Shown piece by piece: positions 21,345 to 35,922 of a stretch of 37,180 bases of DNA. Origin of the DNA: Thermoflexales bacterium (GTDB lineage Bacteria; Chloroflexota; Anaerolineae; J036; Brachytrichaceae); assembly GCA_025056895.1 (NCBI GenBank), contig JANWVJ010000010.1, positions 1 to 37,180 on the forward strand, in the 5' to 3' direction. The first letter of the stretch is position 1. Each line of letters begins with the position of its first letter. The position numbers were made by a program, and so were the translations under genes. The notes under the pieces are model-generated. The model saw only the letters and a list, made by a program, of their open reading frames with translations. It was not told the origin of the DNA and did not search any database.

Positions 21345-22328
21345 ATGGGAAGCACGTACTTCGATGTGTTGCGATTGCCGCGCACCGCGACGGATGCACA
21401 AATCAGCGATGCGTATCGCCGGCTGCGCGCCTTGCACGCCAATGACCCGGCTCGACTGCGGGCAATTGAAACAGCCTATCGCGTGTTGGCCAACCCCATC
21501 ACCCGGCGCAGCTACCTTCGGGCGCTGGAAGAAGGCCGCGCCCCCTCCGTTCAAGAGAGCGAGGCAGCCGAATTGCCCTCCGATCAAGCCGCTAGAGGGT
21601 TTGTCTCGCTCTTGCGTCGCGCAGGCTTACGCCGCTCAACCGGCACTGACAAACGTTCAAAAACCGAATTGCTTGACGCCACAAACGTGGGCCGAGAAGC
21701 GAACGGCGCCGGCGCGGCGCATCCTCCACCAGACAATGCAGCCCGCGCGACTCCCCCTTCTGCCGGCCCACGTCGCCGCAATCGGTATCCAACCGAGTTG
21801 ATTGACAATGAGGCAGCACGGTCTACGGTGAACGATGAGAAGGCTGCATCAAGCCAAACGAACAGCAGTGGAAACTCTATCTCCGGTGCGGCGGATGAGT
21901 TTCATACAGAGCCTGACCGACCCGAGGCGTCGCACCCCCCCAGCGCAGAGGATGCACATCAGACCGGCCGTGATGAAACGCGCATCAGCCCGTTGCGCCG
22001 ACCAAAGTACCTCGCCACCATCGAAGTCGTGTACGAGGGGCGGACAGAAACGTTCGATTTGCTGGCCGGCACAAATTGGATCGGACGACCGTCTAAAGAC
22101 GAGCCATCGCCGGCCGTGCCATTACCCGACCCCGATCGATTCGTTTCGCGTAAACACGCCCGTATCTTTCTGGATGACACAACGTGGACGGTGACCGATA
22201 CCAGTGAAAACGGCACCTTGTTGAACGGCAAGCCACTGCGCAAGGGCCAGCCCAGTCGCCTTAAGGATGGCGATGTATTGACCATCGAGGGCCGCACGCT
22301 CACCATCCGGCGCGTCCCAGACGGATGA
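21345..22328 (+). CDS. J-like domain (degenerate) + C-terminal FHA domain protein
   Basis: YFDVLRLPRTATDAQISDAYRRLRALHANDPARLRAIETAYRVLANPITRRSYL; FHA: NWIGRPS...VSRKHARIFLDDTTWTVTDTSENGTLLNGKPL. Confidence 0.85.
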   Translation: MGSTYFDVLRLPRTATDAQISDAYRRLRALHANDPARLRAIETAYRVLANPITRRSYLRALEEGRAPSVQESEAAELPSDQAARGFVSLLRRAGLRRSTGTDKRSKTELLDATNVGREANGAGAAHPPPDNAARATPPSAGPRRRNRYPTELIDNEAARSTVNDEKAASSQTNSSGNSISGAADEFHTEPDRPEASHPPSAEDAHQTGRDETRISPLRRPKYLATIEVVYEGRTETFDLLAGTNWIGRPSKDEPSPAVPLPDPDRFVSRKHARIFLDDTTWTVTDTSENGTLLNGKPLRKGQPSRLKDGDVLTIEGRTLTIRRVPDG

Positions 22329-24079
22329 TCCGCGCCGGCTGCGCCCTGCCGGCGGGATGTCTCACCTGTACATTCATTCATGCGACCATGACGACTCGTC
22401 CTGTTGCTGTTGTAGCTTTTGGCAGCCAGACCGACATCGGCAGAGAGCGTGATCAGAATCAAGACAGTCTCTTGTCCTACACGCCCCTTGCGCCCTCCGG
22501 CCTACCCTCCAAACAGGGCTGGTTGTTTGTTGTGGCAGATGGCATGGGTGGGCATCTGGCCGGCGAGGTAGCCAGTCAGGTCGCTGTCGAAAGCATCGTC
22601 GAGCACTTCGCCGCCAGCGACGCAGAAGATGTGGCTGCCGTGTTACAGCAGAGCATAGCGGTTGCCAACGAAGCCGTTTGCCGGCGCGCGCACGATCTGG
22701 GTGTGGATATCATGGGCACAACCCTCGTGTGCGCCGTCATCCGAGACGACCAGTTGTTTGTCGCGCACGTTGGCGACAGCCGCGCCTACTTGCTGCGCGA
22801 TCAGACCTTGACTCCTCTCACGCGCGATCATTCACTTGTCAACGAACAAATCCGTCAAGGATTGATTACCGAGACCGAGGCGCGCGACAGTGAGCTACGC
22901 GGGATCGTCACCCGCGCACTGGGGATGAAAGGTGGCGTGCAAGCCGACATCGCTGGCCCAATCGCTTTGCATACGGACGATGTAGTGCTTTTGTGCACGG
23001 ATGGCGTGTGCGGCTACGTGCCGGAAATTCAAATCCGCTACATCTTGCAAACCCATCGCACAGAGCCTCAAAGCGCCGCCGAGCTGCTCATCGAGGCGGC
23101 TAACGCCGTCGGCGGGTTCGACAATGCTACGGCTGTGGTAGCACATGTTCAGCGCATCGAACAGGCCGCGTTAGAGGAAGAGGAAACAGGAGAAACCGTG
23201 TCGGGGCAAATGCGTCTGGAAAAGCCAGCCGCTGTTGATAATGGCCGCGTGCACAGGCCTGCTGCGCCGGCGCCCCTTATGCCCGATGACAGCGATACGG
23301 CCGACAACTTACCGACTGAACCGCCGCCCTCAGATGGGTCGCCTGCTTCCGACAGTCAGACCGAACGCACGAACGACCGTTTGACCGCAGCGCCATCACC
23401 GGCACAGCCAGAACCGTTGATCGGTTGGCGCGAGCTGATCCCGATCAGTGTGCTGATCGTTGTGTTACTGGCCGAAGCAATCGTGTTTGCCTTCGGCGCG
23501 CGACGCACCACCACCGACCCGACTCCGGCGCCGGCGCCTTCTATCACGACATCGGTGGGTGAAGCCGGATCGACCTCGGTTCAAGGGTCGGTAGCCGTTC
23601 AGCCGCTTGTGTTGTCCATCTCTGTTGAACCGCAACCGCCGCTGACGGCATTCACGCAACTGGAGGTGATCACGACACAACTGGCGTCAAACGCACCAGC
23701 AGCCATCACGTTGACTTTTCGCACTAATGCCACCGTGATCGAGCCGACGCATTTTGAGACCAATCTCGATTTGAGCCGGCCTAAATCGACTGTGCGCATC
23801 GAGCTGGCGCCACAGGTCAACTTCAACCGTCAAGAACAGGTCAAGATCGAAGCGCTTGCTGAGGCCGGGCCGGCGGATGATGGTCAGAGCAACACGTGGA
23901 CAATCGGCGCATTTGGCCTACCCTCGCAGCCCGATTTGCGCCTGCGCTCCCGCTTGACGATCCTGATGACGCTGACGCCAATGCAGCCGGTTCCAAGCCG
24001 TTTGCCCATGCGTATCTCTATCCGGTGGCTGGCCGTTGGGGCCATTCCGGGCGATTTCAAGCCCGCTGTTTCATGGTGA
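22325..24079 (+). CDS. PP2C-family protein Ser/Thr phosphatase with TM segment and C-terminal extracytoplasmic region
   Basis: RDQNQDSLL, VADGMGGHLAGEVAS, FVAHVGDSRAYLL, LLCTDGVCGY, DNATAVV; TM ISVLIVVLLAEAIVFAFG; start 22325 (ATGA overlap) or 22388; C-terminal reading frame uncertain. Confidence 0.88.
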   Translation: MIRAGCALPAGCLTCTFIHATMTTRPVAVVAFGSQTDIGRERDQNQDSLLSYTPLAPSGLPSKQGWLFVVADGMGGHLAGEVASQVAVESIVEHFAASDAEDVAAVLQQSIAVANEAVCRRAHDLGVDIMGTTLVCAVIRDDQLFVAHVGDSRAYLLRDQTLTPLTRDHSLVNEQIRQGLITETEARDSELRGIVTRALGMKGGVQADIAGPIALHTDDVVLLCTDGVCGYVPEIQIRYILQTHRTEPQSAAELLIEAANAVGGFDNATAVVAHVQRIEQAALEEEETGETVSGQMRLEKPAAVDNGRVHRPAAPAPLMPDDSDTADNLPTEPPPSDGSPASDSQTERTNDRLTAAPSPAQPEPLIGWRELIPISVLIVVLLAEAIVFAFGARRTTTDPTPAPAPSITTSVGEAGSTSVQGSVAVQPLVLSISVEPQPPLTAFTQLEVITTQLASNAPAAITLTFRTNATVIEPTHFETNLDLSRPKSTVRIELAPQVNFNRQEQVKIEALAEAGPADDGQSNTWTIGAFGLPSQPDLRLRSRLTILMTLTPMQPVPSRLPMRISIRWLAVGAIPGDFKPAVSW

Positions 24080-24119
24080 GGCACGTATTGCCGGGCGCAA
24101 ATGGCCGGATTGTGACACG

Positions 24120-26069
24120 ATGAGCATGGTCGGCAAGACACTCGGACGCTTCAGGCTGCTTGAAGAGATCGGCAGCGGCGGTTTCGCCACGGTCTATCTC
24201 GCCTTGGACACCCAACTCAACGAGCCGGTAGCCGTCAAAGTATTGTCCGAGAAAGCTGGGCGTGACCCAACGGCAGTGGCCCGTTTCGAGCGCGAGGCTC
24301 AGGCATTACGCAAATTGCCCAGCCACCCGAACATCGTCGGCTTACGCGCATCCGGCCGGTTTGAAGGGCGCCACTACCTAGTGATGGACTATTTAGCCGG
24401 CAACGATCTGAGCACTGTGTTGAGCCGGCAAGGCAAGTTGCCGTTCTCTGAGGCAGCCGATATCGTCGGACAAATCGCGGACGCGCTGCGTGCGGCCGCT
24501 GCGGTCGGTTTAGTTCACCGGGATATCAAACCGGAGAATATTCGTTTGCTGCCAGATGGGACGGTGAAGTTGCTCGACTTCGGCATTGCCCGCGAAGCAG
24601 GAGCGTCCCGTCTGACCAAGGAGGGGTTGCTGGCCGGCACAGCAGCCTACGTCGCGCCGGAGGTGTGGCGCGGTCAACAACCTGATCAGCACAGTGATAT
24701 CTATGCCTTGGGGTGCGTGTTCTATGAAATGCTAACCGGTCGCCCGCCGTTCGCCTCGGATTCGCTCGAAACGATGATGCGCCTGCATCTCGAGTCCAAG
24801 CCAGACTTGGATGCACTTGGCCCAGCCGGCGCGCCGGCCGACGTGCGACGCGCCATCGAGCACATGCTGGCCAAAGAGCCGAGCAAGCGCCCGACGTATG
24901 ACGGCTTGCTCAAACAGCTTAAACCGTACCGCCCCAACGAGCGACCGGCGGTCGGCCGTTCCAGCAGTTCTTCCTTTACAACAAGCGATGACGAGGCCGA
25001 AAGCTCGCCGACCGCTTCTGGAACGACCGCCGATGAAACGCGCGTCAACTTGCGCGCCGGTTCCGGACGGGCCGCCTCCGAACGGGCCACAGCCGGACGC
25101 CCCAGACAAGCTCTGCCCGGCGGCCCACGTTCGTTTCGGCTTCAGCCGGCCGGCAGTGCTGCCGGCGCCGGTGTTGGCAAACGCCAAGCCGTCGGGCGCG
25201 GCCTATCTTGGCGCGTAGGCGCCGCGTTAACCGTCTTGCTGCTTCTGGTGGGTGCAGCGTGTGGGGCACTGACGGCAGGCAGCGTAGGCTTGCCGATCAT
25301 TTTGGACTGGCGCGCAGCGCAAATGGCTCCCACACCGGCAGCTCTGGCGCGCGGTGTGGCAAATATGTTGCGGGGAACCGCTTTGCCGATGCCGAGCACC
25401 CCGACGCTGTCCCCAACCGACACACCGGTTCCTCTGCCCACCGAAACGCCGGCCACCATGTTCAGTTTCATTCCTCGCCGATTGCGCTTGTTGCCCGACG
25501 GCCGGCGCGCTGACTACTGGATCGACGATAGCAGTCCCGGCCTGACGCTTGACCCGCCCTTCGATAGCGAAGCCGGCCGCCTGACATGGACGCGCCTGGA
25601 TTACCTCGACCCGGCCGATTACGGCTCCGGTTTTGTCACCATCCGCGCCGGCGTCACGGCTAATATCGTTTGGTCAATGGACCGGCCGTTAGAGCCGGGG
25701 TTCTATGAACTGTTCATCTACCGGCCCTACCGTCCCCCCGATCCGTTGGTGCGCCCCTTTATCGCCATCACCGTCCCATACGAGGTGCGCCTCGACGGTC
25801 AGGTGCTCACACCATTTGCCGGAACTGCTGAGGTGAACCATCAAGCAGCTTATGGACAGTGGGTGAGCATCGGCGGCTACGAACTCAAGCGCGCCGGCAT
25901 CCTGAGCGTGCGACTGGATGTGGAGAATGCGCTGCCGCCGCGCTACGAGGTTGCGATTGATGGACTGGCGATTGCACGGTTAGACGGGCCACAACTCACT
26001 CCAACCCAAACACCATCGCCCACACCGACGGAAACGCCAACCGTCGCCCCAACTGCGCCTGGCCGGTAA
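24120..26069 (+). CDS. Transmembrane Ser/Thr protein kinase (Hanks type) with non-PASTA ectodomain
   Basis: GSGGFATVYLA, AVKVL, LVHRDIKPENI, LLDFGIAR, GTAAYVAPE, DIYALGCVFYEMLTGRPPF; TM VGAALTVLLLLVGAACGALTAG; ectodomain beta-rich with Pro/Thr-rich linkers. Confidence 0.92.
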   Translation: MSMVGKTLGRFRLLEEIGSGGFATVYLALDTQLNEPVAVKVLSEKAGRDPTAVARFEREAQALRKLPSHPNIVGLRASGRFEGRHYLVMDYLAGNDLSTVLSRQGKLPFSEAADIVGQIADALRAAAAVGLVHRDIKPENIRLLPDGTVKLLDFGIAREAGASRLTKEGLLAGTAAYVAPEVWRGQQPDQHSDIYALGCVFYEMLTGRPPFASDSLETMMRLHLESKPDLDALGPAGAPADVRRAIEHMLAKEPSKRPTYDGLLKQLKPYRPNERPAVGRSSSSSFTTSDDEAESSPTASGTTADETRVNLRAGSGRAASERATAGRPRQALPGGPRSFRLQPAGSAAGAGVGKRQAVGRGLSWRVGAALTVLLLLVGAACGALTAGSVGLPIILDWRAAQMAPTPAALARGVANMLRGTALPMPSTPTLSPTDTPVPLPTETPATMFSFIPRRLRLLPDGRRADYWIDDSSPGLTLDPPFDSEAGRLTWTRLDYLDPADYGSGFVTIRAGVTANIVWSMDRPLEPGFYELFIYRPYRPPDPLVRPFIAITVPYEVRLDGQVLTPFAGTAEVNHQAAYGQWVSIGGYELKRAGILSVRLDVENALPPRYEVAIDGLAIARLDGPQLTPTQTPSPTPTETPTVAPTAPGR

Positions 26070-26074
26070 AATCT

Positions 26075-26950
26075 ATGAGCACGATCATTCTGCAATTCAT
26101 TCACCGCACCATGGGCGCGATGTGGGTTTTCGCTGGCGCCCTACTCGTTCTTGCGTCAGGACTCTTAGCGGTTGCTCCAGACCGACTACGCCAATTGGCT
26201 TTTGGCGACGTGCCGCAAGTTGGCGCTGTATTACAACCGATGTTCATGCCATCGTTGGCGGCAGTACTGGCCGGCGTGGTCAGTGGGATTTACATGATGG
26301 TTGTGGGCTTTGGACTGGTGACGCTGCGGAGCTGGGCACGCCTGATCAGCATCGCGTTGAACGTAGCCGTCGGCGCATGTCTGGCCGCATTCGCAGCGGC
26401 CATCGTCATGTACATCCCGGCCGGGGGCATGTCGTCCTCCACTCTGATGATTGTCGCGACGGCCGGCAGTTCAGCAGCCGTCTTGCTGGCCTTCAGCCTG
26501 GCGCTGAGCGCGCCGATTGCCATCGGCTCGTTCGGCGAAGCCGTTCCGGCAGTGCCCAGGCCGGCGCCGGCCAAGTGCCCGACCTGCGCGGGCGCGCTCG
26601 ACCTGACGCGGGCGCGGTGTCCCAAATGCGACCTAGAAATGGAACATCCGGCCGAGCCAAAACGCGCCCGACTGGTCGAAGTCCGCAGCGGCAGAGAGTA
26701 TCCGCTCTCGTTGCGCAAGCTCAACCGGATCGGCCGCGAGTCGCCCGATTTGGACGTATCGCTCGATCACCGTTCGGTTTCGGCAAACCATGCCAGCATC
26801 GAGCACTATCACGGTCGTTTCTATCTCCATGCCCACAACGACGCCTTTGGCACATGTGTCAATCAACGGCGCGTGCGCGAGGCAGAGATTCGTCACAACG
26901 ACGTGTTGACTTTCGGTCAGGCCGAATGTCGCTTTATAGTGGATTATTGA
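26075..26950 (+). CDS. Polytopic membrane protein with zinc ribbon and C-terminal FHA domain
   Basis: Several N-terminal hydrophobic helices, CPTCAGALDLTRARCPKCDLE, FHA RIGRESPDLDVSLDHRSVSANHASIEHYHGRFYLHAHNDAFGTCVN. Confidence 0.85.
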   Translation: MSTIILQFIHRTMGAMWVFAGALLVLASGLLAVAPDRLRQLAFGDVPQVGAVLQPMFMPSLAAVLAGVVSGIYMMVVGFGLVTLRSWARLISIALNVAVGACLAAFAAAIVMYIPAGGMSSSTLMIVATAGSSAAVLLAFSLALSAPIAIGSFGEAVPAVPRPAPAKCPTCAGALDLTRARCPKCDLEMEHPAEPKRARLVEVRSGREYPLSLRKLNRIGRESPDLDVSLDHRSVSANHASIEHYHGRFYLHAHNDAFGTCVNQRRVREAEIRHNDVLTFGQAECRFIVDY

Positions 26951-26992
26951 TTCCTATTCAGGCGCTGCGCCTGTGAACGGACAACTGAGGCC

Positions 26993-27871
26993 ATGCCGAA
27001 TGTGTTGATCCTCTTTATCGCCATGCTGGTTGCATCAGCCGGCATCGCCGCTTGGCTGACTTGGCGCGATGTGCAGCGGCGCAAGCCGACCGATCCATCG
27101 TCGGTTCAACTCGCGGCTGCTGCTAAGTTGAATCAACCTGGACAGACCGGCAGCGCCCAATCTGCTGAGCCTTTGGCATCCCCCGCCCCTACCATCCGCA
27201 CAGCAGTCGAGACTGTTCCGGCGCCGCTGGCTGTTCCAGCGCCGCCGACAGACAAGCAGATTGCTTCCAAGACAAAAGAGTTTCAACTGATCTGCGTGAG
27301 CGGAGCACTGGCCGGAACAGCCTTCAGCGTTGGCGCGGAGTGTCTGATCAGCCGAGGGCCGGTATGCTGGATCGCTATTCCAGAACCCACCTTGTCGGCG
27401 CCGCACCTCGCGATTGATTCATCTGATCGGCCCATTCGCATAAAGGACTTAAACAGCCGCGCCGGCGCACGCATCGGTCAACATCGGCTTGAGGACGCAC
27501 GCGGATTTGTAGAACTGCCGGCAGATCGTTCGATCCAAATCGGGGCGCTCACACTCGCCATCGAAGGCGGAACGCTCACCGTGTCTTCAGCACAAGCCGG
27601 CCGCAGCCTGGCGGGCAAATCGTATGTGATGCCGGCCGCGTTCGTCGTAATCAGCCGGCGCGAGATGCCGGTAGTGATTACCGGCGACATCGATCACCGT
27701 ATCTCCGATGCTCACGCCTTAATGTATGTGGACAACGGCGCATTGATGATCAAGGATTTGAACAGCACCAACGGCACGCGGGTGAACGGAAAGAAACTGG
27801 CCCGCCAGCCGATGCCACTTCAGGCCGGCGATCTGATTGAGATCGGGCAATCGACATTCCGAGTATCGTAG
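26993..27871 (+). CDS. Single-pass membrane protein with tandem FHA-like domains (first degenerate)
   Basis: N-terminal TM VLILFIAMLVASAGIAAWL; second FHA DHRISDAHALMYVDNGALMIKDLNSTNGTRVNGKKL; first FHA-like ISRGPVCWIAIPEPTLSAPHLAIDSS..IKDLNSRAGARIG. Confidence 0.85.
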   Translation: MPNVLILFIAMLVASAGIAAWLTWRDVQRRKPTDPSSVQLAAAAKLNQPGQTGSAQSAEPLASPAPTIRTAVETVPAPLAVPAPPTDKQIASKTKEFQLICVSGALAGTAFSVGAECLISRGPVCWIAIPEPTLSAPHLAIDSSDRPIRIKDLNSRAGARIGQHRLEDARGFVELPADRSIQIGALTLAIEGGTLTVSSAQAGRSLAGKSYVMPAAFVVISRREMPVVITGDIDHRISDAHALMYVDNGALMIKDLNSTNGTRVNGKKLARQPMPLQAGDLIEIGQSTFRVS

Positions 27872-27956
27872 AAGGAGAGCCGATGGACTGCCCGAAGGCG
27901 GGCTTATCTCTATCTGTTGTATGCCGATTACAATACCAACGCAAGCCCAAAAAGTG

Positions 27957-30218
27957 ATGCTGAATCAGAATTTGTCCCCTAAGACCGGAACACTTCGGCT
28001 GCTCCGAGGCCTCCTCGCGTATGCCGTGCGCCTGCTGTGCGGGCTGGGGTTGATGGTTGGGACGGTATGGGCCGCCCACGGGCCGGCGTTGGCGCAAGTT
28101 GCGCTGCCGGGCATCACCAATCTGGACATTGTGCTGGTCATTGATGAATCCGGCTCGATGTGGGAGCGCAACGATCCGCAACTCTTCAACCCAGATGGCA
28201 CGGTGAAGAACCCCGGCTGGCGCATCGTGGCGGCCAATCTGCTGGCGCAATGGCTGGCCACCGACCAATCCGGCGCGCAGCACCAACTTGCCGTTGTCAT
28301 GTTTGGCACCGACGCCAAAGTGATTTTCCCATTACAGGAGATTCACAGCCGTGAATCGCAGGCAGCCTATCAACAGGCGCTGAACGACAACCACGCCTAT
28401 CTCGGCGCGACGGACATCGTGGAGGCGATGCGGCTGGCGAAGAGCGAGCTGAATAAAGCGCGCAGCGGTGAAAACGTCAAGCGCGCGGTGATCTTCTTGT
28501 CAGATGGCGTATGCGAGCCAAAGCCGGTCACCAGCGCCGCCGAACGCCGCCAGTGCGAGCGCGATTTGCGTGAGGTTGTGCAGCGCGATTTTGCCGAGGC
28601 TCAGTTGCCCATCTTTACCATCGCACTGACATCAGACGCGTTCAAGCAGGACCCGGCCAACACCGTATACAAGAACGTATGGCAGGAAATCGCTGCCGTC
28701 ACCGGCGGCGATTACTACGAGCCGGTGCAAGCCGAGCGAGAACTGCTCGAAGCGTTCGTCGGCATCTTGCAACGCCTGTTTGGCTTGCCGATTCAGGCTC
28801 CTCCTCCGCCGGTCGATGCGCCGACCGAGCTGACATTCGAAGTCGCAGCGGACCTCTTGCAAGTTGGTTTCACCACCATCAAGTACGAGCCGGGCATCCA
28901 GATGACGGTGATTCGCCCAAATGGAGCGGTGGTATCGGCCAACGATCCCGACGTGCAATACTCCAGCTCGGCCTTGACCGAGAGCTACAGCGTTTCGCGC
29001 CCTCAGCCCGGCACATGGACGGTGCGCCTGTCTGGGCGCGGCAAAGTGATTCTGGTCACCGTTCCATTTCCTAAGAATAAGTTCGCCGTTGAACGACAGC
29101 AGCCAGCCGCCGTGCACCCGCAAGGCAAGCCGATGGACATCCGCGTGCGCGTATTGGATGTGGATCAGATCGCCAGAACAGCCCAGCAATTGAACCTGGA
29201 GATCACCTTGCCGGATGGGACAACGACCGCCCTGGCGATGACGTCCAACGGCCAGGTGTACACAGCTCGGCTGGACAACACCCTGCAAGTCGGCATGTAT
29301 ATGCTGCGCTTTAGTGGCTCGGTCACGAATGCCGACGGCAGCACGTTCGAATTGAGCGACCAGCAAACCATTCAAGTCGCGCCGGCGCCGTGGCTGCAAC
29401 TGGTCGAACCTCAAGCCAACCGCACGTATCCAACCAACCTGCCCGTGCCGGCGCAGGTGCAACTAATGCTGGGCGCCCAAGCGCTCACCCAACTCAACCC
29501 AAACGATCAATTCGAAGTGATCGCACGTTTGCGCCAAGAAAGCGGCCAAACCATCGACACACAATTCTTGCGCCCAATCGGCAGCGGCGTGTTCAGTGGC
29601 ACATTGATGGCCGGCACAGAGGGGAGCTTTGTCCTGGGGGTGGAACTGGATTACCGAGCCGCCGACGGTGAGACGTTCAAAGATACAAGTGAAGTGCCGG
29701 TGTCGGTAAGCGGTATTTTCGTCCCACCCACACCGCTGCCGACGCCCACACCGGCGCCTACACGGGCCGAACCGCCCGATCCCTTGTTAATCGGCGGCAT
29801 CGTGGTTGCGCTGATTTTGGTGGGCATTTTGACTTTGTTTGTCCTATGGCGGCGCAGTCTGCCTGACCTGATCGGTTCAATCGAAGTAGGCGGCGCGCCG
29901 TTTGCCCTGCGCGGCAAACGCCCGGTCACTATTGGCGCGGATCCGCGTAACCGCATTCTGGTTCAGGGTGTCGGTGTGCTGCCCCGTCACGCCGAGCTGC
30001 GACCGATGGGTAGTCCGAAGCGGCCGCGCGTTGTCATCCGCAGCCTCGACCCAACCAACCCAGTGCTCGTAAACGGCATGGAAGTCCCTTCACAAACATT
30101 GGAGAACGGCGATGTGATCAAAGTCGGCGATCAAACTCTTACCTACATCGGGCCGGATTCGTTCGACGATCTGAGCAGCTTGATGGCTGACGATAGCGCG
30201 GGAGGATGGAAGTTCTAA
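27957..30218 (+). CDS. Signal peptide - vWA domain - TM - cytoplasmic FHA domain protein
   Basis: vWA MIDAS DESGS, GATDIVEAM, FLSDGVC; C-terminal TM LLIGGIVVALILVGILTLFVLW followed by FHA-like PVTIGADPRNRILVQGVGVLPRHAELR..LVNGMEV; start among 27921/27957. Confidence 0.87.
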   Translation: MLNQNLSPKTGTLRLLRGLLAYAVRLLCGLGLMVGTVWAAHGPALAQVALPGITNLDIVLVIDESGSMWERNDPQLFNPDGTVKNPGWRIVAANLLAQWLATDQSGAQHQLAVVMFGTDAKVIFPLQEIHSRESQAAYQQALNDNHAYLGATDIVEAMRLAKSELNKARSGENVKRAVIFLSDGVCEPKPVTSAAERRQCERDLREVVQRDFAEAQLPIFTIALTSDAFKQDPANTVYKNVWQEIAAVTGGDYYEPVQAERELLEAFVGILQRLFGLPIQAPPPPVDAPTELTFEVAADLLQVGFTTIKYEPGIQMTVIRPNGAVVSANDPDVQYSSSALTESYSVSRPQPGTWTVRLSGRGKVILVTVPFPKNKFAVERQQPAAVHPQGKPMDIRVRVLDVDQIARTAQQLNLEITLPDGTTTALAMTSNGQVYTARLDNTLQVGMYMLRFSGSVTNADGSTFELSDQQTIQVAPAPWLQLVEPQANRTYPTNLPVPAQVQLMLGAQALTQLNPNDQFEVIARLRQESGQTIDTQFLRPIGSGVFSGTLMAGTEGSFVLGVELDYRAADGETFKDTSEVPVSVSGIFVPPTPLPTPTPAPTRAEPPDPLLIGGIVVALILVGILTLFVLWRRSLPDLIGSIEVGGAPFALRGKRPVTIGADPRNRILVQGVGVLPRHAELRPMGSPKRPRVVIRSLDPTNPVLVNGMEVPSQTLENGDVIKVGDQTLTYIGPDSFDDLSSLMADDSAGGWKF

Positions 30219-33025
30219 TGGCACTGACTCCGCAGGAAATCCAACAGAAAGCCAATTTGCGCCCGACTTTGTTGATCGGGATTGGCGGAACGGGCCAGAA
30301 AGTGTTGGTACAGCTCAAGGCGCGCTTTTTGCGCAATTACGGCTTCAAGCCGGCGGCGGTCGAGTTTCTGTGTTTCGACACCGATCAAGCCGTGGAGCAG
30401 GTCAACCTGGACGGGCAGCCGGTCAGTCTGACACCGGGCGCCGAACTGGTCAACATAGGCGGCATCCAAACGGCCAACATTCTGCGCCATCTCGACATCA
30501 CCCCGGCCATTGCAGCCTGGATCACCGAAGACAAAGAGCGTATCCCCGTGCAAGCCATCACGATGGGCGCAAAGCAAGTGCGCCCTTTGGGCCGGCTATC
30601 GTTGTTCTGGCATGTCGGCACGGTCGCCAGCAAGATCAAAGCAGCCGTTGCGCGTCTAACCGACATGCGTCTGCGCAGCCAGCAATACGGTGTGAATGTG
30701 TTCATCATCGCCTCGGTGTGCGGAGGAACCGGATCGGGCGGCTTTCTCGACATGGCTTATCTCACACGCAAAGAAATCGAGAACGCAAATTTGCCCTCGT
30801 CGTTCTGCAACATCAACGCCATTCTGGCCCTGCCCTCGGTGTTTCCGAATGTCGATCCGATCGGCATTCAATCCAACGCCTTCGCTGCTCTGCGCGAGTT
30901 GGACTATTTTATGGAGACCGGCGAATGGCGTGTGGACTATGGCAACGCGGCAGTCGGCGTGGTGGACTTTTCGGGTCAACGTCCGTTTAACATCTGTTAC
31001 TTGGTGGACGCGCGCAACGAGCGCGGCGGCGGGTTGGTCGGTCTGGAAGATATTGCGCCGATGATCGCAGAAGCAGTCTATCTGCAAATCAGCTCGCAGG
31101 TGGGCGCTGCCACGAACAGCGTGTTCGACAATGTGCGCGTGTTGTCGTCGCGTGTGTTTTACAAGGAAGAGAACACGTACAAGGGCACAGTCTATAGCAG
31201 CCTTGGCACAGCCTCGCTCGTGTTTCCGGTCAACCGCATCATCGAGCTGTGCGCACAACGCCTGGGGCGCGATCTGATCAAGCAGTATTTGCTGTGCCCG
31301 CCTCCGCCGGCAGAGAAAGTGGATACCGCCGTACAAAGTTTCTTGCAGTCCCAACAGATAGACGGCGAGACGCTGCTGCAAAACTTGGCGCGCGATGCGA
31401 AGGGCAACATCATGCGCTTGATGCTCAACCCGAATGCGCTGAACACGTTTAAAGAAAGCGAGATGTACGGCGCAACGGTGAGCTATCTGAACAAGGCCGA
31501 GACGGCGCTGGACAATGACTTCAGCCAACAGGTAGACAAAAACCGCAAAGCGATGGCCGATAAGCTGAACGCCGCCATTCAGAGCGAAGTGAATCGATTG
31601 GTGGACGACCCGGCCAACGGTTTGAACGCAGCTATAGCATTCCTGGATCGTTTAGACGAACGGCTGGCGCTGGCGCGCCGCGAGTTGGACAAGGTGCGCG
31701 CCGACATGGATCAGCGCCGCGAGCGTCTGCAAAACCAGCTTAAGCTGACTCAGGACGCTTTTGTGTCCAGTTTCAAGTCTTTTCCGGTTGGGCGCACCAA
31801 TCGGATTCGTGAAGCGCGCGATCAACATGTGCAAACATTTCAGAATTATCTGACCGTGCGCGCAGAGAGCCGCAAGCGCGAGGCCGCTTTGGCTCTGCTG
31901 GCAAACTTTAGCGTGACCATTCAGAACATGCGCGCCGGCTTGCAAAACACCGTCAGCCGCCTCCAGTTTGTTCAAACCCAATGGCAAACTCAAATCGGTC
32001 GCGGCCAAGGCAGCGCCAAATCCCGCACCGATTTTGTGCTGGCCGACGACATTACAACCGACGCCGACATCGACCGCTATTACGAGGAGCACGTAGCGCG
32101 GCTGGGCGATTCGCCGCTTGCCGGCTTGCTCAACAGCCAGGGACCGCTGCACGAGTGGCTGAACTGGGAGCAGGAGCAAATTGCAGACCACATCCTGAGC
32201 TATGCCCGTGAGGTATTCACCGACCTGCGCGCCATCACCATCGAGGACATCATCCTCCAAAAACGCAGCGAGATGGACCCCCGTGCAAGACTGCAAGCGT
32301 TGATCCATCGCTCCGCTCCCTTCTGGTCGTATCAAGTTGAGGGTCGCATGGGTCAGGACTGGCAAAGCGAGAAGATCGTCGCTGTCGGCGTAAACGACAA
32401 GGACAACTCCATTTACAAGGACGCCATCGAAACTTCGCAGATTCTCGCCTCAACATTCGATCCGTACACCATCACCGTGCTGCAAACCAAGCACGGTGTG
32501 CCGCTCTTCGCACTAACCCAATATCCCGCGTTCAAGGAGAAGCACGACCTGGTCATGCGTTCTGGGCTGAAGCCGTTGTACGTCTTCCCCGAAGTGCGAC
32601 CGGGCGGCCAGCGCGCGAAACAAGTGTTTGCACTGGGCGTCGCGTATGGCTTCATTTTTAAGTCCGGCGTGTACTACTACATCGCCCCGCGCGACGCCGG
32701 GGATCAGCCGCTGCAACTGGATCGCGGCATGGCCGAATCGCTGCACATGTTCCGCAATAACGAAACGCTGGTTGATCAGGTAGGGGCGCAGGTCGAGCAC
32801 GAGATCAGCGTGTTGGGCATCGAACCAGCGCATCAAATCCTGGAGCAGTTTGTCAGCGAGCCGTATGTCATGGAGCTGCGTGGAGGCGCAGCGCGCGCCA
32901 ACATTGACCGTCGCTCGATGTCGAAGGATGCTTCGGTCGGCAAGGCCGGCAGCGTGAACTATGATTTGCTGATGGAACTGCGCGAGACCGTGAAAGCCTA
33001 CATCAAAGATGTGTTGAGAGCATGA
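30218..33025 (+). CDS. Tubulin/FtsZ-superfamily-like protein (bacterial tubulin-like family)
   Basis: RPTLLIGIGGTGQKVLVQLKARF (T1-like loop), IASVCGGTGSGGFLDMAYL (GGTGSG signature), coiled-coil-rich middle; start coupled to the upstream stop (TAATG). Confidence 0.82.
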   Translation: MALTPQEIQQKANLRPTLLIGIGGTGQKVLVQLKARFLRNYGFKPAAVEFLCFDTDQAVEQVNLDGQPVSLTPGAELVNIGGIQTANILRHLDITPAIAAWITEDKERIPVQAITMGAKQVRPLGRLSLFWHVGTVASKIKAAVARLTDMRLRSQQYGVNVFIIASVCGGTGSGGFLDMAYLTRKEIENANLPSSFCNINAILALPSVFPNVDPIGIQSNAFAALRELDYFMETGEWRVDYGNAAVGVVDFSGQRPFNICYLVDARNERGGGLVGLEDIAPMIAEAVYLQISSQVGAATNSVFDNVRVLSSRVFYKEENTYKGTVYSSLGTASLVFPVNRIIELCAQRLGRDLIKQYLLCPPPPAEKVDTAVQSFLQSQQIDGETLLQNLARDAKGNIMRLMLNPNALNTFKESEMYGATVSYLNKAETALDNDFSQQVDKNRKAMADKLNAAIQSEVNRLVDDPANGLNAAIAFLDRLDERLALARRELDKVRADMDQRRERLQNQLKLTQDAFVSSFKSFPVGRTNRIREARDQHVQTFQNYLTVRAESRKREAALALLANFSVTIQNMRAGLQNTVSRLQFVQTQWQTQIGRGQGSAKSRTDFVLADDITTDADIDRYYEEHVARLGDSPLAGLLNSQGPLHEWLNWEQEQIADHILSYAREVFTDLRAITIEDIILQKRSEMDPRARLQALIHRSAPFWSYQVEGRMGQDWQSEKIVAVGVNDKDNSIYKDAIETSQILASTFDPYTITVLQTKHGVPLFALTQYPAFKEKHDLVMRSGLKPLYVFPEVRPGGQRAKQVFALGVAYGFIFKSGVYYYIAPRDAGDQPLQLDRGMAESLHMFRNNETLVDQVGAQVEHEISVLGIEPAHQILEQFVSEPYVMELRGGAARANIDRRSMSKDASVGKAGSVNYDLLMELRETVKAYIKDVLRA

Positions 33026-35922
33026 TGGTCACGGTGCAGCAAACCTACATTGTCGGCCTGGGCCGGCTGGGCGCTGAAGCAGTTGAGCACTTCAAGCGCC
33101 GCACTCAGGCGACATGGGGCGAGCTGCCGGCGATAAAACTGCTGGTCATCGACGCCCCAGACGTTGAGCCGCCCGATCCGCCAACCGATGAGCCACCGCT
33201 CTCCGTGTTAGGGCCGACGGAGGGGATCAATCTACCACTTGAACTGCCGGCCAAGCCAGCGCTCAAGGTCGATCCAACTGAGTTACAACGCCTGTTGCCG
33301 TGGTTGCCGCAAGAGGTTGTTGCGCGGGGCGAGGCATGGCGACACACGCGCGCTGCTGCCCGCGCAGCTTGGCATCTCAACCTGCCGGCGTTGTACCCCT
33401 TTCTGGCCGCCCACCTAAACGAAATGGGATCTGCAGCAGCGCGCGATGCAATGGCTGCCAAGGGCTTTGATGTGCCCACCGACCGGAGCGAGGCGGCGCT
33501 GATCCTCATCGGTGACATCGGCGACCGCGTAGCGGGCGGCTTGTTGCTCGATGTGGCGTACGTCTTTCACCACTTGTTCCAAACCGCCGGATTGCACACT
33601 GCCGGCACGGCGCTGCTCTTTTTGCCCTCGCTCACACGGTCTGATCCCCTGGCAGAAGCGCGCGCCTATGCCACCCTGAAAGAAATCAATGCGCACATCG
33701 GCGCGCCGTTGGGCAAACGACGACTCTATCGCTGCGTCTATGGCGCGCCCGACAATCCCTTCCTGGTCATCGAGTCTGACGCGCCGGTATTCAACTACGG
33801 CTGTTACTTGATCGACACACGCAACGAGAAGACGCTCACGCTGAAAGATGAGCGTGAAGCTGCTCGCTTGGCCGGCGAATGGTTGGTGCGCACAGTGCTT
33901 ACGCCGCTCAAGGGCCGCGTGGACGAGTTCGTTTCTGCGCAGAGCACGCTCCCCTGGGCGCAAGGGCAACCTGCCGCTTACAACAGTCTGGGCCTTGCCA
34001 GCTATGTGGCGCCGATAGACAACCTGTTGTCCTGGAGCGCCTGCCGGCTCGGTGAAGCCATGCTCTCTGAACAACTGCTCAAGCCGGAGTCATTCGCCGT
34101 CACAGCCGATAAACTGAGCGGATTGATGAGCGCTGTTCGTCTGCGGCCGGAGGACTTGCTGAACACCGTCTTGCGGCGCGACCGAGACGGCAAACCGATC
34201 CGCTTGCACAGTGATCTGATCGAGCGTCTCAAAACGCTGCCGCGCGGTCAAATCGCCGCTGCCGCGCAGGCAACCCTCAACACACTCAACAAAGACACTG
34301 TGCCGACCTTGCGCCGACACATCGAAGGCAATGTGCGGCGCGTTGTGCAAGACGTTGAAGAAGCGCTCGATCAAGAAGTGGCAACGCTCTTGCGCTCTCG
34401 TCCGATCGGCGGCTTGTCGGTGGCCACTCAGCTTGTCGCGCGCATACGGGACGACGCCGGCCGCTTTCTACAATCGCTGGACCGACGGGAAGCGGCGCTG
34501 TTGGCGCGCAACCAGCATCAGGTCAATTTTCTCGCCCGCCAAGGGCCGCTGCTCAAACAGGCCGTTGCCGGCGTTCCCCGCGCACCAATCATCGCCTTGG
34601 CAGCGCTAGGCGGCTTTCTCGCGCCGCTTGTCCTGGCTACAGCGTGGCTCTCGCAGGTGCTGGAATTCGCGCCGCTGCCGTTACGGTTGGGCGTGATCGG
34701 CAGCACATGGCTGACCGCTGTGGCCGGCGCACTGTATGCCGTTTGGCAAGGGGTGTTTGGCGTTGAGCGCATTCGGGATCAATACCTTGCGTACCTGCAA
34801 AACCGATTTGAAACCGAATTGAGCTTGATCACAGCGCAGGCTGCGCGCACCGTCTACTCCGATGTGATGACGACAGCCGAACGTCGTCTGAACCGGCTCG
34901 AACAATTCGGTGAAACGCTGCGCGACCTGGCCCGCACATATCATCGGCGCGTCGAAGAAACGCACCTTGTCGGCGCTATTGACTTTAGCCTTCAACGGTC
35001 GGCCTTGACCGAGATGATGGTTGATGCGCTCTATCGACGCTATGCCGGCGCAACCGATGACGAAGCACACACCTACGCCCTGATGGAGAGGGTCGGCCCG
35101 CTTGATCGGTGGTTGGATTGGAGCCGCGAGCAGATCGAACTGAGTATTCTGGACTATACCGAATCCCTGTTCGCGCCGATGCGGGAAGTGCGTGTCGAGA
35201 GCCTGGCACGCGAGCTGGACGACCTGGATCGGCTGGCGCGCGAGCTGAACGACCGATCGGCGCCCTTATGCGGGTTCAACGTCTATCACGCCGGCCAGTC
35301 TCCGATTTCCACCGTGCAGACGTTCATCGGGCTGGAATCTCCCGACCAGAGTGAACTGCGCGCCATCTTCGAGCGTGTAAATCCCTTGGCAGTATTTGAG
35401 ACGACCGGCGACCCGCATGCCGTCGTAGTCACCAGTGTGCGCCGGGGCATGCCCTTATTCAGTCTGTTGCGTTTGGGCGATCTGCGCCGCAATTATTTCG
35501 ACGTGTTGCGTCAGCGCAGCGAACCCTTGCACCTCGAGGACGAGCTGGCGCTGACCGCCGACTTGGCCGCTCTGTCGAGCGGCCTGCCCGACCAGATGCA
35601 ATCTGACCCAGGCAGCGCGTTTGCTCTGGGTTTGGCTTTCGGGCTGATCGGGCGCGACGGGCCGCCTGACGGACTGTACGTGGCCCACGATGCGACAGGC
35701 GCCGTCATCGCTCGGCTGGCCTCCCAGCGGCTGGAGTCGGCGGTGCTGTTGGGGGCAGATGACAAACTTCTGGCGCGGATCAATCAGCTCATTCAAGAGC
35801 GATTGGCCTCCCAAAGCAGTGTTGAATTGGCTCGGCAACTGACCTCTTATCGACAGCGGTCGGACCTAAGCGACTGGGAGCGGCGGCGTTTGGATGAATG
35901 CATCGCACTGTTACGGCGATAA
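33022..35922 (+). CDS. Divergent, membrane-anchored paralog of the tubulin-like protein (pseudo-tubulin)
   Basis: Full-length collinear similarity to 30218-33025 (VGLGRLGAEAVEHFKRR; GDIGDRVAGGLLLDVAY; CYLIDTRNEK; YNSLGLASYVAPIDNLL; GPLDRWLDWSREQIELSILDY; DPHAVVVTSVRRGMPLFSLL); two hydrophobic helices at ~34580-34760; ATGA overlap with upstream gene. Confidence 0.75.
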   Translation: MMVTVQQTYIVGLGRLGAEAVEHFKRRTQATWGELPAIKLLVIDAPDVEPPDPPTDEPPLSVLGPTEGINLPLELPAKPALKVDPTELQRLLPWLPQEVVARGEAWRHTRAAARAAWHLNLPALYPFLAAHLNEMGSAAARDAMAAKGFDVPTDRSEAALILIGDIGDRVAGGLLLDVAYVFHHLFQTAGLHTAGTALLFLPSLTRSDPLAEARAYATLKEINAHIGAPLGKRRLYRCVYGAPDNPFLVIESDAPVFNYGCYLIDTRNEKTLTLKDEREAARLAGEWLVRTVLTPLKGRVDEFVSAQSTLPWAQGQPAAYNSLGLASYVAPIDNLLSWSACRLGEAMLSEQLLKPESFAVTADKLSGLMSAVRLRPEDLLNTVLRRDRDGKPIRLHSDLIERLKTLPRGQIAAAAQATLNTLNKDTVPTLRRHIEGNVRRVVQDVEEALDQEVATLLRSRPIGGLSVATQLVARIRDDAGRFLQSLDRREAALLARNQHQVNFLARQGPLLKQAVAGVPRAPIIALAALGGFLAPLVLATAWLSQVLEFAPLPLRLGVIGSTWLTAVAGALYAVWQGVFGVERIRDQYLAYLQNRFETELSLITAQAARTVYSDVMTTAERRLNRLEQFGETLRDLARTYHRRVEETHLVGAIDFSLQRSALTEMMVDALYRRYAGATDDEAHTYALMERVGPLDRWLDWSREQIELSILDYTESLFAPMREVRVESLARELDDLDRLARELNDRSAPLCGFNVYHAGQSPISTVQTFIGLESPDQSELRAIFERVNPLAVFETTGDPHAVVVTSVRRGMPLFSLLRLGDLRRNYFDVLRQRSEPLHLEDELALTADLAALSSGLPDQMQSDPGSAFALGLAFGLIGRDGPPDGLYVAHDATGAVIARLASQRLESAVLLGADDKLLARINQLIQERLASQSSVELARQLTSYRQRSDLSDWERRRLDECIALLRR

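Follow-up and report, generated by a model that had tools for sequence, protein, structure and literature searches.

Operons in which a gene of the FtsZl1 family (Pfam Tubulin_2, PF13809) is accompanied by genes for a von Willebrand factor A (vWA) protein and a protein kinase were predicted by Makarova and Koonin (2010, PMC2875224), and section 29 of Kaur et al. (2020, PMC7159879) describes conflict systems centred on GAP1-N2 GTPases that include a tubulin theme and a kinase/PP2C/vWA theme, the two being called non-overlapping there. Here we describe an operon of eight genes, located at positions 21345-35922 of a 37,180-nucleotide stretch of Thermoflexales DNA (contig JANWVJ010000010.1; this whole stretch is called the window), that encodes a vWA protein, two tubulin-like proteins designated TubA and TubB, a Ser/Thr kinase, a PP2C phosphatase, and FHA proteins. 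Of the named organisms, Candidatus Roseilinea mizusawaensis AA3_104 is the closest relative (91% identity in TubA); the source, a filamentous bacterium of hot springs, belongs to the same genus, and we refer to the locus as the Roseilinea operon. Members of this genus, which is placed in the Anaerolineae, have been described as filamentous (PMC7729410) and as anoxygenic phototrophs. The comparisons reported below show that the core of the operon is vWA-TubA-TubB, that TubA and TubB divide the labour, TubA being soluble with GTP loops and TubB being loop-dead with a predicted membrane hairpin, and that the phospho-signalling genes are a lineage-specific addition.

The locus is like the FtsZl1/vWA/kinase operons in its TubA domain, T4 loop and architecture, in the position of a vWA gene with a metal-ion-dependent adhesion site (MIDAS) upstream, and in the presence of a protein kinase in the operon. 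It differs in that none of the eight proteins has a Pfam match to the OmpA family or to a P-loop GTPase, both frequent in those operons without being obligatory, in that it has an extra loop-dead, presumably membrane-anchored paralogue (TubB), and in that it contains PP2C and FHA genes, which go unmentioned in the main text of PMC2875224. An earlier note on this DNA had cited that paper for a link between vWA proteins and FtsZ/tubulin-like proteins in membrane systems, and this was the right comparison to draw. With the Firmicutes theme of PMC7159879, as set out in the section cited, the operon shares two coiled-coil tubulin-domain genes and a transmembrane (TM) protein with an extracellular vWA domain, and with the actinobacterial theme a kinase accompanied by PP2C and vWA. 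Unlike the GAP1-N2 systems, it has no TRAFAC GTPase or FNIII gene by Pfam and no recognisable GAP1; it also unites the tubulin and the kinase/PP2C themes that are kept apart in that section, and adds FHA proteins. Neither the full gene combination nor the TubA/TubB division of labour was found described in the open-access full texts searched; the earlier suggestion that the combination may be undescribed is consistent with this search.

All eight open reading frames lie on the + strand within 14.6 kb, in the order J-domain-like-FHA, PP2C, Ser/Thr kinase, 4TM-FHA, TM-FHA-FHA, signal peptide-vWA-TM-FHA, TubA, and TubB. The spacings from gene 1 to gene 8 are -4, -44, +5, +42, -35, -13, and -4 nt, so that most neighbours overlap, and start and stop codons are joined as ATGA at 22325 and 33022 and as TAATG at 30216-30220; the frames and their coordinates thus bear out the tight, co-directional arrangement noted earlier. 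The gene calls are mechanical and all TM segments are hydropathy predictions. The -44 and -35 overlaps are partly an effect of annotation, as the kinase and vWA frames begin at TTG codons, and in-frame ATG codons near 24120 (kinase) and near 27921 or 27957 (vWA) are likelier starts. A Pfam search of the whole 3.29-Mb genome placed five of its ten FHA domains, distributed over four proteins as the earlier note had counted, and one of its four Ser/Thr kinases inside the operon. The chance expectation for 14.6 kb is about 0.04 FHA domains, and clustering by chance is excluded.

TubA (gene 7; 30206..33025, + strand; 939 residues as an open reading frame, with 30218 as the preferred start) is an FtsZl1/Tubulin_2 protein with a coiled-coil stalk, an alpha/beta C-terminal domain, and no TM segment. 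It matches PF13809 over its full length (positions 1-356 of 356, E=5.3e-65), and its nucleotide loops are intact (T1 GIGGTG, T4 CGGTGSGG), the T4 loop conforming to the FtsZl1 GTP-loop pattern GGGTG(S/T)G. The AlphaFold2 model, with a mean predicted local-distance difference test score (pLDDT) of 79.4, has an FtsZ-like head, an extended coiled coil and a C-terminal domain, which is the FtsZl1 architecture, and in the PDB the head matches CetZ2 (4b45, E=6.8e-5), TubZ, and FtsZ. The product of 30218-33025, for which the earlier note had named the absence of a tubulin/FtsZ fold as grounds for giving up its proposal, therefore does have such a fold. Like canonical FtsZ, CetZ, and TubZ, the protein has the tubulin head; unlike them, it is longer by about 600 residues, which make up the stalk and the C-terminal domain, and no Pfam match to FtsZ_C or Tubulin_C was obtained with either TubA or TubB.

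TubB (gene 8; 33022..35922, + strand; 966 residues) is a diverged Tubulin_2 paralogue. Its Pfam match is weaker (9.6e-15) and covers positions 176-354 of the model, and its homologues, which were matched also in genomes G009 and G540 and at locus L063, align over 1-355; an hhalign comparison with TubA gave 99.9% probability (E=4e-34). The AlphaFold2 model (pLDDT 76.5) has its elements ordered as in the TubA model, and the best structural matches of the head are TubZ and CetZ, tubulin being matched as well. Thus, both proteins are tubulin-like, as had been proposed; however, they are not equivalent. The nucleotide loops of TubB are degenerate (T1 GLGRLG, T4 IGDIGDRVAGG) and depart from the GTP-binding pattern, a loss that had gone unremarked, and a TM hairpin is predicted at about residues 515-575, within the long stalk helices. 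Judged by its sequence, TubB is a tubulin homologue and no longer a functional GTPase. The stalk tip of TubA was also searched for a shared membrane-touching motif; the alignment is too loose there for any to be claimed.

The third member of the core is gene 6 (27837..30218, + strand), which encodes a signal or TM segment, an extracytoplasmic vWA domain (Pfam VWA_2 1.6e-12; MIDAS motif DESGSM), a TM segment at about residue 646 and a cytoplasmic tail of FHA fold (Pfam FHA 2e-9). In five of five loci this tail has lost the Arg and Ser that bind phosphothreonine (the residues are IGA and LPRH). FHA-like vWA tails also recur in loci that have no kinase, with hhalign probabilities of 93% and 90% as against 1.0% and 0.2% for two control groups of tails, indicating that the FHA-fold tail either predates the phospho-module or does not depend on it. 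It is probably a docking module. The earlier idea that all FHA domains read phosphothreonine is accordingly retained for the accessory proteins, whose FHA domains keep both residues, and rejected for the vWA tail. The residues critical for phosphothreonine binding are those that we take to be so from general knowledge of FHA domains.

We annotated 67 TubA loci of Chloroflexota, from metagenome-assembled and other genomes, with profile hidden Markov models built from the domains in the window; the sample is skewed toward stronger TubA matches, and TubA was picked in each locus by the presence of a GGTGxG loop. A vWA gene lies immediately upstream of TubA in 53 of the 67 loci, and a protein of more than 600 residues follows it in 56; the tubulin profile is matched by 43 of these. 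The GGTGxG loop is missing from every one of the 56; since TubA itself was chosen by that loop, it is this total absence downstream that is informative. TM segments are present in about 27 of 36 unfused TubB proteins. In some genomes the parts are joined in one polypeptide: L063 encodes CAP-vWA-2TM-PD40-TM-Tubulin_2 (by Pfam), L148 encodes vWA-TM-Tubulin_2, and L079 (6299-16840, genome G311) encodes a protein of 3513 residues, Tubulin_2-vWA-TM-Tubulin_2, with TM segments and PD40 repeats; additional vWA-TubB fusions were detected with the profiles built here. These fusions are the best available evidence, and suggest that the extracytoplasmic vWA protein and the cytoplasmic tubulins form one machine, without being proof that the unfused homologues bind one another.

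The phospho-signalling genes are distributed differently. FHA genes with a kinase, PP2C, or both occur within 11 kb of TubA in six of the 67 loci and are missing from that interval in 61; the phospho-module is accordingly a lineage-specific addition. The earlier note had named, as grounds against its proposal, homologous loci that in most genomes show the tubulin-like pair without kinase/FHA genes, and this is borne out in part: co-occurrence holds for the six loci, and we reject the FHA/kinase/PP2C set as a necessary component of the system in general. Five of the six loci form a clade with a support of 100 in the Shimodaira-Hasegawa-like approximate likelihood ratio test (SH-aLRT), and a single gain suffices for all six on the tree, although the branch that unites them is supported at only 53. 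All eight genes are present in identical order in G002, and the order matches in G001, where the FHA domain of gene 1 was located by the whole-genome Pfam search; a scan of genome contigs for relatives returned matches in these two congeners only. Between the window and G002 every gene is under purifying selection, with a ratio of nonsynonymous to synonymous substitution rates of 0.042 for TubA and 0.11-0.21 for the others. Three further Anaerolineae carry the operon in rearranged form. In G009, of the same family, the kinase is fused to the tandem-FHA protein, and two PP2C genes and a DUF3352 gene are present; G492, of another family, retains 4TM-FHA, TM-FHA-FHA, PP2C, vWA-FHA, TubA, and TubB, and has kinases and another PP2C gene about 15-30 kb away; and G540 has FHA-FHA, vWA, TubA, and TubB followed by a kinase array, which amounts to about eight Ser/Thr kinase genes on contig C188 (10.8-35.2 kb; L118, L161).

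The first five genes of the window operon provide a kinase and a phosphatase with Pfam matches and retained catalytic motifs, in agreement with the earlier assignment, and three accessory FHA proteins. Gene 1 (21345..22328, + strand; 327 residues, no TM segment) combines a degenerate J-domain at residues 1-65, which had not been remarked before, with a C-terminal canonical FHA domain (Pfam 1.7e-16) that retains GR, SRKH, and NG. The DnaJ match is sub-threshold (Pfam 1.2e-5), and PDB matches are to DnaJ-B13 and the FHA protein TB39.8; the HPD motif is absent in both species compared, and a working Hsp70 co-chaperone is therefore unlikely. Gene 2 (22325..24079, + strand; 584 residues) encodes a cytoplasmic N-terminal PP2C domain (Pfam 3.7e-18; NCBIfam Stp1/IreP 2.4e-68) with the motifs VADGMGG, GDSR, DG, and DN, one TM segment and an extracytoplasmic C-terminal region. 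Gene 3 (24036..26069, + strand; 677 residues as an open reading frame) is a Hanks-type Ser/Thr kinase (Pfam Pkinase 1.9e-51) with intact GxGxFxxV, VAVK, HRDIKPEN, and DFG motifs, a TM segment at about residue 390 and an extracytoplasmic domain. Gene 4 (26075..26950, + strand; 291 residues) has four TM segments (at 12, 51, 88, and 122), zinc-ribbon-like CxxC pairs and a C-terminal canonical FHA domain (Pfam 7.6e-14) that matches EmbR FHA, and gene 5 (26993..27871, + strand; 292 residues) has an N-terminal TM segment and two tandem FHA domains (Pfam 2.1e-20); its counterpart in G009 is the TM-FHA-FHA-kinase fusion (L059:11227-13635). G009 also has, on contig C380 (L164), a separate cluster of kinases, PP2C, and four FHA proteins, one of them with vWA, and no tubulins; the phospho-module may thus exist by itself.

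We infer that the Roseilinea operon encodes a version of the vWA/FtsZl1 membrane system equipped for phospho-signalling, with a membrane-anchored GTPase/pseudo-GTPase scaffold, an external vWA sensor and gating by phosphorylation, a proposal that we rate as an even bet. TubA would cycle with GTP and assemble with the membrane-anchored TubB into a scaffold attached to the cytoplasmic membrane from the inside. The vWA protein would sense an extracellular or envelope ligand via its MIDAS site and dock on the scaffold through its FHA-fold tail, independently of phosphorylation. The Roseilinea clade would have an additional control, the membrane kinase/PP2C pair gating scaffold assembly and the FHA adaptor proteins reading its phosphothreonine marks.

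The purpose of such a machine may be judged from its sister loci. Nine of the 67 loci (L060, L073, L074, L075, L130, L134, L135, L137, and L141) continue beyond the triad, in unchanged orientation, with at least two of the genes for reverse transcriptase (RT), Cas1, RNase H, and Cas2, to which a gene for a DUF697 GTPase is often added. These operons, from sister Anaerolineae, share with the Roseilinea operon the homologous vWA-TubA-TubB core and the FHA-like vWA tail, and differ in having RT and Cas proteins as partners in place of kinase, PP2C, and FHA proteins. The Cas1 in the triad locus is the sole Cas1 of genomes G057, G168, G184, G560, G569, and G716, its frame being interrupted by one stop in G569, and a CRISPR array at L075 comprises about 70 repeats at intervals of 71-77 nt. 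On the TubA tree the RT-Cas1-linked loci occupy two distinct regions, of which one belongs to a set of 18 that includes the window (SH-aLRT 99). We found no description of this link in open-access full texts; subscription papers or supplements may differ. The Roseilinea operon itself has no RT or Cas1, and the Cas1 of its genome is located elsewhere.

These loci argue for a biological conflict system, anti-phage or cell-fate, in which vWA would sense invasion or envelope damage, the TubA/TubB GTP switch would set a threshold, and kinase, PP2C, and FHA proteins would replace the effector or regulator modules of other members. As a statement about purpose, this reading can stand together with the scaffold mechanism; we consider it a serious candidate that falls a little short of an even chance. 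In its favour are also the prediction of such a role for tubulin/vWA GTPase systems in the section of PMC7159879 cited, the exchange of partners typical of such systems, and a patchy spread, Tubulin_2 being present in 90 of the 396 genomes sampled from Anaerolineae; a sample of 400 genomes from Chloroflexota gave 35. A vWA-tubulin pair also adjoins BrxL and RecQ-type genes on Thermus and Allomeiothermus plasmids. On these Thermaceae plasmids (pTHEOS01, L166:7449-15408; pMESIL01, L167:7375-16467), vWA, tubulin-like, and unknown genes of about 680 codons stand beside genes for a BrxL-like protease and a RecQ-family helicase, a possible defence island; the 677-residue Thermus product encoded 3' of TubA was not shown to be a TubB (hhalign 2% with the TubB profile, 43% with a sister-clade TubB profile). 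However, the genes flanking the Roseilinea operon in the window are housekeeping or metabolic, the operon contains no gene for a nuclease, a toxin, or any other effector, and its core is strongly conserved between species, unlike fast-evolving effectors. PADLOC returned generic kinase matches (PD-T4-6, MAD6) and weak PP2C matches only, with none for the tubulins, vWA, or FHA proteins, and so does not support the operon as a known defence system. In the TerY-P triad, a cytosolic TerY vWA protein is combined with PP2C and a TerY-linked kinase; the vWA protein of the operon is predicted to be extracytoplasmic, and the two may be analogous at most.

Several observations weigh against the scaffold mechanism. 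The TubB model is moderately confident (predicted TM-score 0.62), its tubulin-head matches have E>=3e-3, and its top Foldseek matches, to long-helix membrane proteins, are attributable to coiled-coil similarity (TM-score about 0.1). The stalk TM segment is mostly absent from the unfused TubB of the RT-Cas1-linked loci L074, L075, L130, L134, L135, and L137, so not every such system would be held at the membrane by TubB. The kinase substrates and the binding of FHA domains to TubA, TubB, or vWA are putative, and we know of no experiment that shows polymerisation of any FtsZl1 protein. According to PMC2875224, the T6-H7 elements needed for filaments and the FtsZ C-terminal domain are not identifiable in FtsZl1. 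TubA might then be a GTP-dependent conformational switch, pairing with TubB as a discrete heterodimer or joining it in a small ring, and relaying signals between vWA and the cytoplasm without a polymer. The failure of both proteins to match FtsZ_C or Tubulin_C is consistent with such a switch, and the large stalk and C-terminal domains could obstruct protofilaments; the head, however, resembles those of the polymerising CetZ, TubZ, and FtsZ, and long stalks would fit lateral display from a filament. We regard a switch that does not polymerise as possible and rather doubtful.

It could also be argued that the kinase, PP2C, and FHA genes merely share the operon and serve general signalling without acting on the tubulin/vWA core, as the core lacks them in 61 of 67 loci and as gene order and fusion state vary among genomes. 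This is improbable in our estimation: the start and stop junctions overlap, the phospho-genes are retained in four genera, an FHA fold forms the C-terminal end of the vWA protein itself, and one of the only four kinases of Roseilinea genomes is encoded here. A second cytoskeleton for division or shape of a filamentous, multicellular form, to which the tubulin fold, the membrane anchor, and the filamentous habit of Roseilinea (PMC7729410) might point, is very unlikely, as canonical FtsZ is separately encoded in all six genomes with the phospho-variant, 22 of 28 genomes of the same family have no TubA match, and sister loci lie within CRISPR operons.

Returning to the scaffold as the preferred mechanism, the separate FtsZ indicates that the operon tubulins are not the division tubulin, and since defence genes accompany the triad in sister loci, a response to envelope stress or to invaders is more likely than cell division as its purpose. 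Membrane remodelling, the purpose put forward earlier, is no better supported than conflict or defence, given the RT-Cas1 CRISPR adaptation operons. Tentatively, and with the balance against it, one could envisage vWA-TubA-TubB as a modular, membrane-tethered GTP switch, an active GTPase with a pseudo-GTPase anchor, that serves as a shared chassis for immunity and stress sensing, coupled to RT-Cas1-Cas2 spacer acquisition at the membrane in one lineage and to Thr phosphorylation and FHA readers in Roseilinea.

The prediction of FtsZl1 proteins dates from 2010, and no experimental function for them surfaced in the abstracts and passages searched. The Roseilinea locus supplies handles on the family: a soluble predicted GTPase with a membrane-anchored dead twin, fusions that hint which parts probably touch, and a complete set of writer, eraser, and reader whose targets may be the cytoskeletal core. 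To our knowledge there is no earlier case of a tubulin-superfamily machine linked to spacer acquisition, and this would be the first; the sister CRISPR-adaptation loci suggest why bacteria keep vWA-TubA-TubB systems.

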